Below are positions 44,022 through 49,096 of a stretch of DNA of 64,000 bases, piece by piece. The stretch covers positions 1 through 64,000 of the forward strand of contig NZ_LGCL01000023.1 of the NCBI RefSeq assembly GCF_001306115.1. Reading direction: 5' to 3'. The stretch is from Ornatilinea apprima (GTDB lineage Bacteria; Chloroflexota; Anaerolineae; Anaerolineales; Anaerolineaceae). The notes beneath the pieces were generated by a model. It was not told where the DNA came from. It searched no databases and saw only the letters and a program-made list of their open reading frames with translations. The number at the start of each line of letters is the position of its first letter. Within the stretch, counting starts at the first letter, position 1. The position numbers and the translations under genes are program-made.

Positions 44022-45032
44022 CTATGCAATACCCATCTGCATGGGGTAACTTGCCAGATACTCCAAAAGGTCATCAGGAAGTTCGATCTTTAACACCTGC
44101 CGGATCATCTCATGGTGAAAAAAACTGTAGATCAACTGGCGATTAATATCCGTAGAATACTCCGTGAAATGAGAACGTAGATTGCCGTCAATGTGTTGCT
44201 GTAAATCAAAAGAAAATGAAGCAGCTTTGTCGGAAAAATCAAACTCGGTTAAGTTTATCCATTTCTCACTACGATCCCATTGAGTCTTAATGTGAATTGT
44301 CAATGAAATTGGATCATAAATGATTTTCCAGATGGTATCTGGGCGTTGAGCCGCATCAAGGATTTTATATAAATCAGATACTTGTGGTTTGCTGCCATTA
44401 TCCATCTGTTCCAACAAACTGGCAGTTACGCAAAACCTTTCTACAGAATTTTTAGCATACTCATCCAGAAATGCAGGGAGTTTATTGCCGTTGGAATTCA
44501 GGAAATTGAGTGCTTCAGTATAGATGGTATTGGTCAGGACAGGTACAGGCATGCAATCATCCTCAAAGACTTGCATGTGTCCATTCAAATATTCAACGAT
44601 GGCAGAATTGCCTTTTCGATCCAGCAGGATATATTGAATGGTTGAAGTTGTTTGGGAAATCCTAACTTCAGCAAGCGATTTCAATGCCTGGGGCACCGTT
44701 TCACAAGTATCCAATAAAAACTGGATAACCTGTAATTCCTTGACCGCAGGGCGTGAATCCAACGATGGATATTGGGTCTCGCGCAGCGTTGTTTGTTCGA
44801 CAATAAGGCCAACTTCATTCATCCCGCCTGATGGAAATTCTTTTCCAGATTGGCTAAAAACCACACTTCCGTAACAGGAAAGCCATTGAAGGGGTACCTC
44901 AGGGGGCATGAGCAGGGCAGTTTTGTGAATCCCGCGCTGGTTGGTGAATAACATGCCGCTAGGCAGAAAAATATCTTCGTTATTCGCCAAGAAAAACTGA
45001 TCTCCAGATTCACAAATAAAAGTGGTACACAT
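44022..45032 (-). CDS. Choloylglycine-hydrolase-like linear amide hydrolase
   Basis: After removal of Met1 the chain starts with Cys (MCTTFICES), the N-terminal nucleophile of the Ntn family. Residues ANNEDIFLPSG correspond to the Asp/Asn region used in catalysis, and GGMNEVGLIVEQ and LTN are further landmarks. The family cleaves amide bonds in bile salts, penicillin V or acyl-homoserine lactones; a soil or reactor bacterium may use it on the last group or another amide. The ATG at 45032 is chosen over an in-frame TTG at 45035. The length of 336 residues is usual. Confidence 0.8.
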   Translation of the reverse strand: MCTTFICESGDQFFLANNEDIFLPSGMLFTNQRGIHKTALLMPPEVPLQWLSCYGSVVFSQSGKEFPSGGMNEVGLIVEQTTLRETQYPSLDSRPAVKELQVIQFLLDTCETVPQALKSLAEVRISQTTSTIQYILLDRKGNSAIVEYLNGHMQVFEDDCMPVPVLTNTIYTEALNFLNSNGNKLPAFLDEYAKNSVERFCVTASLLEQMDNGSKPQVSDLYKILDAAQRPDTIWKIIYDPISLTIHIKTQWDRSEKWINLTEFDFSDKAASFSFDLQQHIDGNLRSHFTEYSTDINRQLIYSFFHHEMIRQVLKIELPDDLLEYLASYPMQMGIA

Positions 45033-45081
45033 CAAATTTTCTCCGTATCCTCAATTAAGTTATTACAGTTTCCGAATGCTC

Positions 45082-45486
45082 TTATGGTCTGAATGCTTCG
45101 CCTGCGAGATATGTATCGAAAAATTCCTGAAATTTCGTGACTTTACCAGCCTCGATTGTCACCAAATGGACAAAGTCTGATTCATAGGTCTTGCCCGTTG
45201 GGAGCGCAAGGCATTTCATGGTGCCCACAACGGCAACTGAGTCATGATCGGTCAACATTTTGATTGGTTGCAACACCAAAATTTCCTCCGACTGCCGCCC
45301 AATGTTTGCCCATTCCAAAAAGCCAGCATGCCCGTGGTGAGTTCCACCTGCCGGATTGAACGGATTGGAAGGCTCCCCCCATTCAACATCTGGGTGGAGC
45401 ATTGCGAGAATTCGATTAATATCGCGTTTGCCAAATGCCTCATACAGGCTCTTTACAATGTTGATGTTTTCTTCTTGTATATTCAT
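45082..45486 (-). CDS. SnoaL-like protein (NTF2 fold)
   Basis: A 134-residue cone-shaped NTF2-like fold: VKSLYEAFGKRDINRILAMLHPDVEWGEPSNP near the start and VTKFQEFFDTYLAGEAF at the end. SnoaL-like proteins are often small isomerases or stress-related enzymes, but the reaction here is unknown. It lies between the amide hydrolase and a membrane protein gene. Confidence 0.75.
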   Translation of the reverse strand: MNIQEENINIVKSLYEAFGKRDINRILAMLHPDVEWGEPSNPFNPAGGTHHGHAGFLEWANIGRQSEEILVLQPIKMLTDHDSVAVVGTMKCLALPTGKTYESDFVHLVTIEAGKVTKFQEFFDTYLAGEAFRP

Positions 45487-45568: not shown

Positions 45569-46162
45569 CTACGCGCCGGGTGTAGCACGGGATCGTGTTC
45601 TCACCACAATTTTCCTGATCGCCGCATAGATACCCAAAACGGCAAGCAGGGCAAGGATGATGAAATAGACAACCCATTTCGCAATCGTTATTGTACTGGC
45701 AATGTTCACCAACAATTCCAGGCGCACCGGATAGCTAAAAAGCAGTGTCAGGAGCAGGCCATTTTCCAACAGGTCCAGCCCACTACGCGCAACCGGCAGC
45801 AAATTTAGTAAAATCCATTGCTTGCCAATTCCTGACCCGCGCAGCAGAAGCGTGGTCAGCAACGAGAGCAGGCACATATATACCAGCGCGAAAACAATAT
45901 CCAGACCAAGCAACTGGGCGTAGCCAATTCTGCCCGCTTCCCCAATACGCTCGAACATGCTGTAAACGAGCGAAGAAGAATACCCACCAGATAGCATGTC
46001 GAGCATTCCTACTCCGTTGCTGATGTTCCTGAGATGGATCGAACCGAAGGGGCAAACCTCCATCGTCCCGGTAACGAGGACAAACAGAACCAGCATCACC
46101 ACGAAATTGCGGATATTGGTGTACTCTTCAATCAGGACTGAAAGTTTTCTGAGTGAGTTCAT
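45569..46162 (-). CDS. Hypothetical membrane protein (197 aa)
   Basis: I do not recognise the family. About four to five membrane helices are predicted, including FVVMLVLFVLVTGTMEVCPF near residue 20 and VVYFIILALLAVLGIYAAI near the end. The ATG at 46162 lies one base after the stop of the CPBP-like gene, so the two are co-translated and probably act together. The first periplasmic loop is short and lacks obvious motifs. Confidence 0.6.
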   Translation of the reverse strand: MNSLRKLSVLIEEYTNIRNFVVMLVLFVLVTGTMEVCPFGSIHLRNISNGVGMLDMLSGGYSSSLVYSMFERIGEAGRIGYAQLLGLDIVFALVYMCLLSLLTTLLLRGSGIGKQWILLNLLPVARSGLDLLENGLLLTLLFSYPVRLELLVNIASTITIAKWVVYFIILALLAVLGIYAAIRKIVVRTRSRATPGA

Positions 46163-46163
46163 T

Positions 46164-46976
46164 TTATTCACTCCCCACAGGTAATATCGTAATTGGAAGC
46201 TGCGTATGTGTCTGGTGATATTGCCCTGCCACGCGAACCAGCCCCAACATAAGAAGCCAAACCCCAAACAAGCCGAGGACAGCAGGCATCGAGATGGTCC
46301 TTCCATCGTTGATCAAACTGATCAGGATGCGCATGGGCAGAAAGACAGGCCAGATGATCAAGACATTGCTGGTCAGGCGGAAAACAATGCTGTACAAGAG
46401 ACCAGCCAGGAATAGAGAAAGGAGGTCTACCAGAGATGCGCCATAGGCAAGGTAATGCAAGGCGTACAACGCGGCGCTCAGAACTACCGATGGGAGAATC
46501 CCGAAGGCCGCTTCAAGCCGCGTTTGCACCCATCCACGCCAAAAGACGGTCTCAAAGAATCCGATGAACATGGCCAGACCAATCAGGGGCAGCAATTGCG
46601 CGAGGGGCGGAAACTGGACTTTTCCCATGATGCCAGCAAATTGCAGAATAACAAAAATCAATTGAATAAAATGACTTCTGCGCAACCATTTTCGGGTCAT
46701 TCCCAGAGATTCTAATGAGCGATGGCGAATAAATACTGTCCAGTACAAGGGGAGGGCCACCCCGCAGAGCGCTGCCGTGATAACCGCGTACACGATGAAA
46801 TAAGGGATGCCCCCTCTATCTTGTTGCCCGTTGATATTTGTCGCGATAGAGATACCGCCCATCACCAGCAATACGGTAACGGCAACAGCAATTAGATCTT
46901 TGTTGGGATTCCAGTGAAAAGTAAAAATTTGCTTGAGCGTTTCTTGCATAACGTGTATAGATATTTTGCGATTCAT
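46164..46976 (-). CDS. CPBP-like intramembrane protease with degraded active site
   Basis: The 270-residue protein has about eight membrane helices and the region of the CPBP family. The first motif, normally EExxxR, reads ETVFWR here, so the second glutamate is Thr; the FxxxH motif is kept as LYALHY, but the third HxxxN/D motif is replaced by WPVFLP. It may therefore be a non-peptidase homologue. The start has GGAG upstream. It is followed directly by a small membrane protein gene. Confidence 0.65.
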   Translation of the reverse strand: MNRKISIHVMQETLKQIFTFHWNPNKDLIAVAVTVLLVMGGISIATNINGQQDRGGIPYFIVYAVITAALCGVALPLYWTVFIRHRSLESLGMTRKWLRRSHFIQLIFVILQFAGIMGKVQFPPLAQLLPLIGLAMFIGFFETVFWRGWVQTRLEAAFGILPSVVLSAALYALHYLAYGASLVDLLSLFLAGLLYSIVFRLTSNVLIIWPVFLPMRILISLINDGRTISMPAVLGLFGVWLLMLGLVRVAGQYHQTHTQLPITILPVGSE

Positions 46977-47059: not shown

Positions 47060-49096
47060 CTATTTTGCCGAGCGCAAGCCGATGATATTCCCTTCCGTGT
47101 CCTGGATCAGGCAAATGTACCCCAGTTGTCCCATTTCAAATTTGGGCTGCAAGACGATGCCGCCAGCGGCCTGGACACGGCTGATAGCCTGGTCCAAATC
47201 ATTCAACTGAAAGTAAACAACTGTTCCCTGTCCCGAAGGCTGGCTATTTTCGTTTTGGATCAGCCAACCCGCAGCACCGGAGGCATTACTTTTTTCTGGA
47301 AAGGCTGCAAATTTGACATCCCCAAAACTCATGGCGAATAAATTGGTACCCAAGACCTGTTCATAAAAGGCTCTGGCGCGGTCAAGATCCTGAACCGGGA
47401 TATCCAACCAGGTGACCACGTTCTGGCCCTTGGTTTCAGGTTTCTCTTTGGACGGGTCATGAACCGAGCGCAAGCCGATGATGTTCCCTTCCGTGTCTTG
47501 GATCAGGCAGATGTACCCCAGTTGCCCCATTTCAAATTTGGGCTGCAAGACGATGCCGCCAGCGGCCTGCACGCGGCTGATGGCCTGGTCCAAATCATCC
47601 ACCTGAAAATAGACAACTGTTCCCTGTCCCGTAGGCTGGTTATTTTCGTTTTGGATCAGCCAACCCGCAGCACCGGAGGCATTACTTTTTTCTGGAAAGG
47701 CTGCAAATTTGACCTCACCGAAACTCATCCCGAATAATTTGATATCCAAGACCTGTTCATAAAAAGCTTTGGCGCGGTCAAGATCCTGAACCGGGATATC
47801 GAACCAGGTAACCACATTCTGGCCCTTGGTTTCAGGTTTCTCTTTGGACGGGTCGTAAACAATTTTCCCCGATTGAAAAACATAGACAATTCTGCGAATT
47901 TCTGAGATGTTGCTGGTCGGGTCGCCATCCACCAGAACCAAATCAGCGATTTTTCCTTGTTCAATCGTGCCAATCTCATTTGCTAGTCCCAGGTGTTGAG
48001 CGGCATTGCTGGTCGCCGCGATGATAATCTGCATCGGGGTCATGCCTGCCTGCTGCATCAACTCCATTTCCTCAATCTCGGCCGCGCCGCCAGTTTGGAA
48101 GGAGCAGTTCATATCGGTGCCCATCGCAATCGAAACACCCGCATCAGAAAAATCTTTCAGGTTTTGCATGGAGATGGGAAGTTTTTGCGCATCGGTCGAG
48201 GTTTGCAGGATTTGCAGCGTGGGCACAAAGAAAGCTTGTTTCTCGATGAGCAACTGCGGCAAGGCATCGCCTGTCAGGCGCATCCCCACCAGACCATGCT
48301 CGATGCCGTCGGCCCCGGCTTCCAGTGCCTCCATCGCGTCCTGCTCATACCAGACATGCACGGTAGCGCGCAGGTTTTGTTTGTGCGCCTCATCGATGAC
48401 GGCTCGCAACACCTCTTCAGAGAGTTTTTGAACCACAACCGGCTGGTCAAAAGTCTCCATCTCGCCGCCCTGATAAGACAGCTTGATGGCATCAATCTTC
48501 CTGGCGGCCAATTCGCGTACCTTTTCCCGGGCAATCTCGGCGTCGTCCACTTCAATGGACATCTGCGCGCGCGACCAGGGATCATCGGCAGTCAGGGTCA
48601 GCGCGGGATGCCCGTCTGGGGCGGTGAAATTGGGGCCAACAGTGAGCAGCCGCGGGCCAGGAATTTTCTGATCTTGCAGTTGTTGTCGTAATTCCAGAAC
48701 AATGTCGAGCGGGTCATTCAGTGACTTGATCGTAGTGACCCCATGTTTCAAGAAGTTATTCATCTGTGTGGGAATCTGGTTCTCCAGCAATGCGCGGTAA
48801 GCCGCTTCGCCTTTGTCAAAGCTGTAGAAAATATGCAAATGAGCATCAATGAGACCCGGCATCAGGCTTTTTCCGGTGCCATCAATGATCTGCGCACCGC
48901 TGATGTTCACCGCCTCGGTCGAAATGGTTTGAATAAGGCCATCCTTAATCACAACCGAGGCTGTTGGCAAAATTTTTCCATTGCCGACGATGACGCGAAC
49001 ATTCTTTATAACGATTGTTTCCGGAGTTCCTGATGAACAGCCTGCCATTCCAAAAGTGAAGGCAAATATAAGTAAGATGGGAATAAATTTTTTCAT
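47060..49096 (-). CDS. Lipoprotein amidohydrolase fused to two glyoxalase-like domains
   Basis: Residues 1-20 form a lipoprotein signal ending FGMAGC. Residues 30-410 are an amidohydrolase barrel with DAHLHIF, KLSYQGG, ATVHVWYE, GIEHGL and GTDMN, giving a usual two-metal site. From about 415 there are two copies of a VOC/glyoxalase domain (WFDIPVQDLDRAKAFYEQVL) of 132 residues each, almost identical to each other. Both carry the NASGAAGWLIQ block. Such domains bind metals or small ligands. The two copies arise from an exact-length 396 bp tandem duplication. The start has AAGGAG upstream. Substrate is unknown. Confidence 0.8.
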   Translation of the reverse strand: MKKFIPILLIFAFTFGMAGCSSGTPETIVIKNVRVIVGNGKILPTASVVIKDGLIQTISTEAVNISGAQIIDGTGKSLMPGLIDAHLHIFYSFDKGEAAYRALLENQIPTQMNNFLKHGVTTIKSLNDPLDIVLELRQQLQDQKIPGPRLLTVGPNFTAPDGHPALTLTADDPWSRAQMSIEVDDAEIAREKVRELAARKIDAIKLSYQGGEMETFDQPVVVQKLSEEVLRAVIDEAHKQNLRATVHVWYEQDAMEALEAGADGIEHGLVGMRLTGDALPQLLIEKQAFFVPTLQILQTSTDAQKLPISMQNLKDFSDAGVSIAMGTDMNCSFQTGGAAEIEEMELMQQAGMTPMQIIIAATSNAAQHLGLANEIGTIEQGKIADLVLVDGDPTSNISEIRRIVYVFQSGKIVYDPSKEKPETKGQNVVTWFDIPVQDLDRAKAFYEQVLDIKLFGMSFGEVKFAAFPEKSNASGAAGWLIQNENNQPTGQGTVVYFQVDDLDQAISRVQAAGGIVLQPKFEMGQLGYICLIQDTEGNIIGLRSVHDPSKEKPETKGQNVVTWLDIPVQDLDRARAFYEQVLGTNLFAMSFGDVKFAAFPEKSNASGAAGWLIQNENSQPSGQGTVVYFQLNDLDQAISRVQAAGGIVLQPKFEMGQLGYICLIQDTEGNIIGLRSAK
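47070..47861. repeat. Tandem duplication of 396 bp
   Basis: The block beginning GAGCGCAAGCCGATGAT at 47070 recurs at 47466, exactly 396 bases later, with high identity across about 390 bases. The period of 132 codons keeps the reading frame and duplicates one glyoxalase-like domain. The few differences suggest a recent event with some drift. Confidence 0.85.

Follow-up and report, generated by a model that had tools for sequence, protein, structure and literature searches.

A predicted lipoprotein amidohydrolase with a tandem, in-frame pair of VOC domains in Ornatilinea apprima

INTRODUCTION

Metal-dependent amidohydrolases of the Cc2672 carboxypeptidase and Xaa-Pro dipeptidase-like type (PDB 3mtw, 2qs8, and 3feq) consist of chains of 403 to 426 residues without a VOC tail. 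In turn, two babbb motifs are present in a single glyoxalase or bleomycin-resistance monomer, which functions as a dimer (PMC3143149), and two VOC domains within one chain are found in proteins of the Rv0577 type (PDB 3oxh). On fusions of amidohydrolases with glyoxalases, our literature search returned no relevant paper.

Here, we describe a gene of Ornatilinea apprima, located in a window of 64,000 nucleotides (the whole stretch of DNA analyzed), whose product shares the fold and the HxH, K, H, H, D residues of the Cc2672-type enzymes but carries a VOC tail, with two VOC domains in one chain as in Rv0577-type proteins. Our preferred reading, to which we assign a probability of roughly 45%, is that of a surface hydrolase with a substrate-binding tail, in which the tandem VOC pair would imitate the usual VOC homodimer.

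RESULTS

Gene layout and domain architecture

The features of the gene are listed in Table 1. The open reading frame begins with an ATG codon downstream of a ribosome-binding site and lies in the interior of a 178,321-base contig. A Pfam search of the 678-aa protein returned Amidohydro_1 (1.4e-36) and Glyoxalase (PF00903; E 9.2e-22), the latter in two stretches, with a full-domain match in each VOC copy. The N-terminal sequence IFAFTFGMAGC matches the lipobox pattern of bacterial lipoproteins, with the cysteine at C20. Judging by this lipobox, the protein is probably membrane anchored and would be located at the surface, and the VOC pair would fold outside the cytoplasm. The initial annotation had called the protein a lipoprotein, an amidohydrolase, and an unusual fusion; the lipobox match and the Amidohydro_1 match bear out the first two designations, and the third holds as well. 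No second amidohydrolase-VOC fusion was found in roughly 800 related genomes or in the best 80 loci of a scan of 84,980 species. The domain architecture is new and the combination unusual, while the component families are known and ordinary.

TABLE 1 Positions, in the window, of the gene and its parts
Feature	Position	Strand	Basis
Whole gene (678 aa; lipoprotein amidohydrolase ending in two VOC domains)	47060..49096	minus	ORF, Pfam, AAGGAG
Predicted lipoprotein signal peptide (residues 1-20, lipobox GMAGC, C20)	49037..49096	minus	PROSITE-type lipobox pattern match
Amidohydrolase domain (residues ~25-414)	47855..49024	minus	Pfam, conserved metal-centre residues, AlphaFold2, Foldseek
VOC copy 1 (residues 415-546, opening with the linker DPSKEKPETKGQ)	47459..47854	minus	Tandem Repeats Finder, Pfam Glyoxalase 431-540, codon comparison
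VOC copy 2 (residues 547-678)	47063..47458	minus	Tandem Repeats Finder, Pfam, codon comparison
Left edge of the repeat unit (VYD, the final amidohydrolase residues)	47849..47860	minus	GTTTACGACCCG vs GTTCATGACCCG

The amidohydrolase domain retains an intact metal centre

As in the Cc2672-like group, whose metal centre comprises HxH, a bridging Lys, two His, and an Asp, all six residues are kept in the amidohydrolase domain (H86, H88, K205, H247, H267, and D328), and these are conserved in 58 to 59 of the 59 aligned sequences. The AlphaFold2 model of this domain, with pLDDT mostly >90, has the barrel fold and small beta domain of that group, and its best Foldseek match was Cc2672 (3mtw; E 1.9e-31, TM-score 0.82 by target length). 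The closest structures, Cc2672 and Xaa-Pro dipeptidase-like enzymes, share about 25% identity with the domain, and the next-best matches include ochratoxinases and molinate hydrolase. Against the NCBIfam model for Xaa-Pro dipeptidase (NF051886), the protein scored 182.4 bits, short of the curated equivalog cutoff of 500. By family membership, the enzyme would cut an amide or peptide bond.

Both VOC copies are probably constrained

The strongest array in the window by a wide margin, as reported by Tandem Repeats Finder, has a period of 396 bases (2.0 copies, 93% matches, 0% indels, score 1392). Each unit corresponds to 132 codons, and the two units, residues 415 to 546 and 547 to 678, are in frame. 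With the last two codons left out, the copies differ at 26 of 390 nucleotides (93.3% identity) and at 11 of 130 residues; in all, 27 codons differ, 14 synonymously and 13 nonsynonymously, the final two codons being among the 13. Thus, the repeat finder, the open reading frame, and the codon comparison agree with the earlier claim that one VOC domain was doubled in frame by 396 bases (132 codons), but the doubling, which had also been called recent, is not very recent, given 7% divergence and a dS of ~0.2.

Third positions account for 18 of the 26 differences between the copies (P = 0.0002), the dN/dS ratio was estimated at ~0.22 (dN 0.047, dS 0.215) by NG86 and at ~0.31 (0.052/0.166) by YN00, and none of the 11 internal replacements fell on the 19 positions that are invariant in the VOC subfamily. 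These results indicate that both copies have probably been under selection since the duplication. The longest identical run between them, 73 nt, gave no significant sign of gene conversion (P = 0.10).

These data bear on two other explanations of the tail. It might be a passenger that arose by chance fusion, was doubled by unequal crossing over, and was kept since it folds harmlessly; tandem duplication is a common neutral event, and among related genomes and the best 80 loci of a scan of 84,980 species, the architecture was found in one genome only. However, the synonymous bias and dN/dS values of ~0.2 to 0.3 at a dS of ~0.2 speak for constraint on both copies, and the invariant residues of the VOC family are intact, so that we regard a passenger as rather unlikely. 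Alternatively, two alleles of a single-copy domain might have been joined in tandem during assembly of a mixed genome bin, the genome comprising 45 contigs, with contamination estimated at 8.7%, and the same gene having been found in no second genome among those searched. The 7% divergence, which extends over the whole unit, and the constraint on both copies argue against such an artefact, as do the exact retention of frame and linker and the position of the gene inside a 178-kb contig; we consider it extremely improbable.

The fusion probably preceded the duplication

The repeat unit starts within the last strand of the amidohydrolase, where GTTTACGACCCG, encoding VYD, is matched by GTTCATGACCCG, encoding VHD, at the join between the copies. 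Identity falls off immediately upstream of this left edge, and VYD fits the amidohydrolase end in relatives (GKVVYS and GEIVVD). Since the repeat edge lies inside the amidohydrolase end, an amidohydrolase with one VOC domain probably came first, and the VOC part was then doubled together with the linker. Base composition gave no sign of foreign origin, as GC content is 51.5% and 51.0% and third-position GC is alike for both parts.

Each VOC copy is a whole domain that lacks the glyoxalase I ligands

VOC copy 2 alone matched PF00903 over positions 4 to 119 of 121 (E 1.9e-10), and the VOC subfamily profile aligned to residues 8 to 126 of the 135 residues of E. coli glyoxalase I (1f9z, with the identity of the sequence checked; ligands H5, E56, H74, and E122). 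Since one copy spans nearly all of glyoxalase I and monomers of this kind hold two babbb motifs (PMC3143149), a 132-aa copy on its own amounts to a full VOC domain, both babbb modules included, and the pair corresponds to the dimer. The duplication thus completed nothing, contrary to the earlier suggestion of a closed site formed by doubling.

The metal site that had been suggested fared no better. H5 and E122 are replaced in both copies by W and G, residues that occupy these positions in 22 and 24, respectively, of 26 VOC subfamily sequences; in the profile alignment, V and W/A stand opposite H74 and E56, respectively, an assignment that is less certain since the multiple alignment is gapped there. 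With the glyoxalase I ligands replaced in both copies, a metal site of the known kind is unlikely. The copies are also matched by Pfam Ble-like_N, which is compatible with metal-free binding. AlphaFold2 models of the VOC pair reached a pLDDT of only ~30 to 65 in two runs, in which the VOC part of the alignments consisted of the window's own two copies only. The two copies may share a metal-free pocket, and it is more likely that the domains bind a small molecule than that they form a new metal site.

The same residues weigh on the idea that the VOC pair is a second enzyme, similar in type to a glyoxalase, a dioxygenase, or an epimerase, whose metal site lies where the copies meet. Metalloenzymes with sites at subunit interfaces are common among VOC proteins (PMC3143149), and the two copies have been kept under constraint; yet the canonical ligand positions read W, W/A, V, and G in both, and the prevalence of W and G across the subfamily points the same way, which makes a second enzyme very improbable.

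Relatives and distribution

Whole-protein searches of roughly 800 genomes, drawn from the family, order, class, and phylum of O. apprima, found no other amidohydrolase-VOC fusion, although the two large searches of this kind scored only two candidates per genome and could have missed one. None was found either when related genomes were searched with the VOC part only or in searches of plasmids and phages. Close-relative scans of genome contigs and viral contigs with the whole protein as the query gave no match, nor did VOC alignments against viral contigs. In a scan with the amidohydrolase alignment across 84,980 species, each represented by one genome, a VOC tail was present in none of the best 80 loci, and a search of the organism's own genome found no further close copy of either part.

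Among these best 80 loci, the nearest amidohydrolases were from rumen Clostridia (L076 to L083), with 41 to 44% identity, and in the tree they form the sister clade of the window's amidohydrolase with a support of 100/96. In all eight, the N terminus carries a hydrophobic, transmembrane-like segment and the C terminus a different domain, of ~220 aa, whereas actinobacterial relatives have neither the membrane segment nor the C-terminal domain. This pattern suggests a lineage in which membrane-anchored amidohydrolases gained different tails, and it is on these grounds that we read the VOC pair as a binding module. The clostridial C-terminal domain (L076, 2773-4728, and L077 to L083) is itself conserved and nearly unannotated, with a weak match to YjbF/GfcB. 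A search of one clostridial order, that surrounding the nearest relative, added a single amidohydrolase, which is more distant and whose length of 408 aa leaves no room for a VOC tail.

The nearest VOC proteins each consist of one free-standing domain, with identity reaching ~45% in L158. The best PDB match of a VOC copy was 3oxh, both domains of which align. In four genomes of one genus of the same class, two different VOC genes lie head to tail and almost touch (L023, 1492-2301; L032, 1489-2283; also L171 and L181), resembling an unfused VOC pair.

Gene neighbourhood

The neighbouring genes, encoding CAAX-protease-like, SnoaL-like, and AAT-family proteins and a LuxR/MalT-type regulator, indicate no single pathway. 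Two overlapping open reading frames on the minus strand (45569-46306 and 46164-46976) encode a CAAX-protease-like membrane protein and a second membrane protein that has no Pfam match and probably starts further downstream. Downstream of the amidohydrolase gene, at 44022-45486 on the minus strand, an AAT/choloylglycine-hydrolase-family protein, which is another amide hydrolase of a different fold, adjoins the SnoaL-like protein.

A special case of the substrate-binding tail is a surface drug-modifying lipoprotein, in which the VOC pair would bind a toxic compound protectively and the amidohydrolase would then degrade it. The Ble-like_N match and the ochratoxin and molinate hydrolases among the amidohydrolase relatives fit this proposal, but there is no resistance context among the neighbouring genes, and we hold it to be quite unlikely.

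DISCUSSION

In the preferred reading, a surface hydrolase with a substrate-binding tail, the catalytic part would be a metal-dependent amidohydrolase of the carboxypeptidase/prolidase-like group, related to Cc2672 and ochratoxinase, and its probable reaction, on the outer side of the membrane, would be the cleavage of an amide or peptide bond in a small molecule. Fusion to a C-terminal VOC domain would have come first, followed by the in-frame doubling of that domain and its linker. Most likely, the two copies would pack against each other within one chain, in the manner of the usual VOC homodimer. The pair may form metal-free ligand-binding clefts, as in bleomycin-resistance proteins, and these clefts may hold or select the substrate of the amidohydrolase. 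We infer the substrate class, the pairing of the copies, and the binding role, and we consider the binding role and the intramolecular dimer plausible. A broader proposal, which we regard as unlikely, is that this amidohydrolase lineage carries exchangeable C-terminal modules for ligand binding at the surface and that in this case it recruited a formerly cytosolic VOC domain, whose doubling built an intramolecular dimer pocket feeding the hydrolase, that is, an extracytoplasmic VOC substrate-binding module.

If the preferred reading is true, the gene would represent a traceable case (dS ~0.2) of a normally homodimeric domain becoming a tandem pair within one chain, with the tandem pairing caught after fusion to another enzyme, and it would suggest that VOC domains can act as surface binding modules. 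At present, the gene is a combination of known parts in one genome.

With the amidohydrolases of rumen Clostridia, the protein has in common a motif of the PNFTAPDGHP type and N-terminal membrane attachment, but their anchor is a transmembrane segment rather than a lipobox, and their C-terminal domain, with its weak YjbF match, is not a VOC domain. The single-domain VOC proteins that carry NWFEIP and EGNxxGLHS motifs (e.g., L158 and L159; 38 to 45% identity in the close set) share the invariant residues and the missing metal ligands of the window's VOC copies; they have neither signal peptide nor amidohydrolase, whereas the copies described here are fused to both. Finally, while the two domains of Rv0577 are far diverged, those of the present protein are ~91% identical and fused to a hydrolase.
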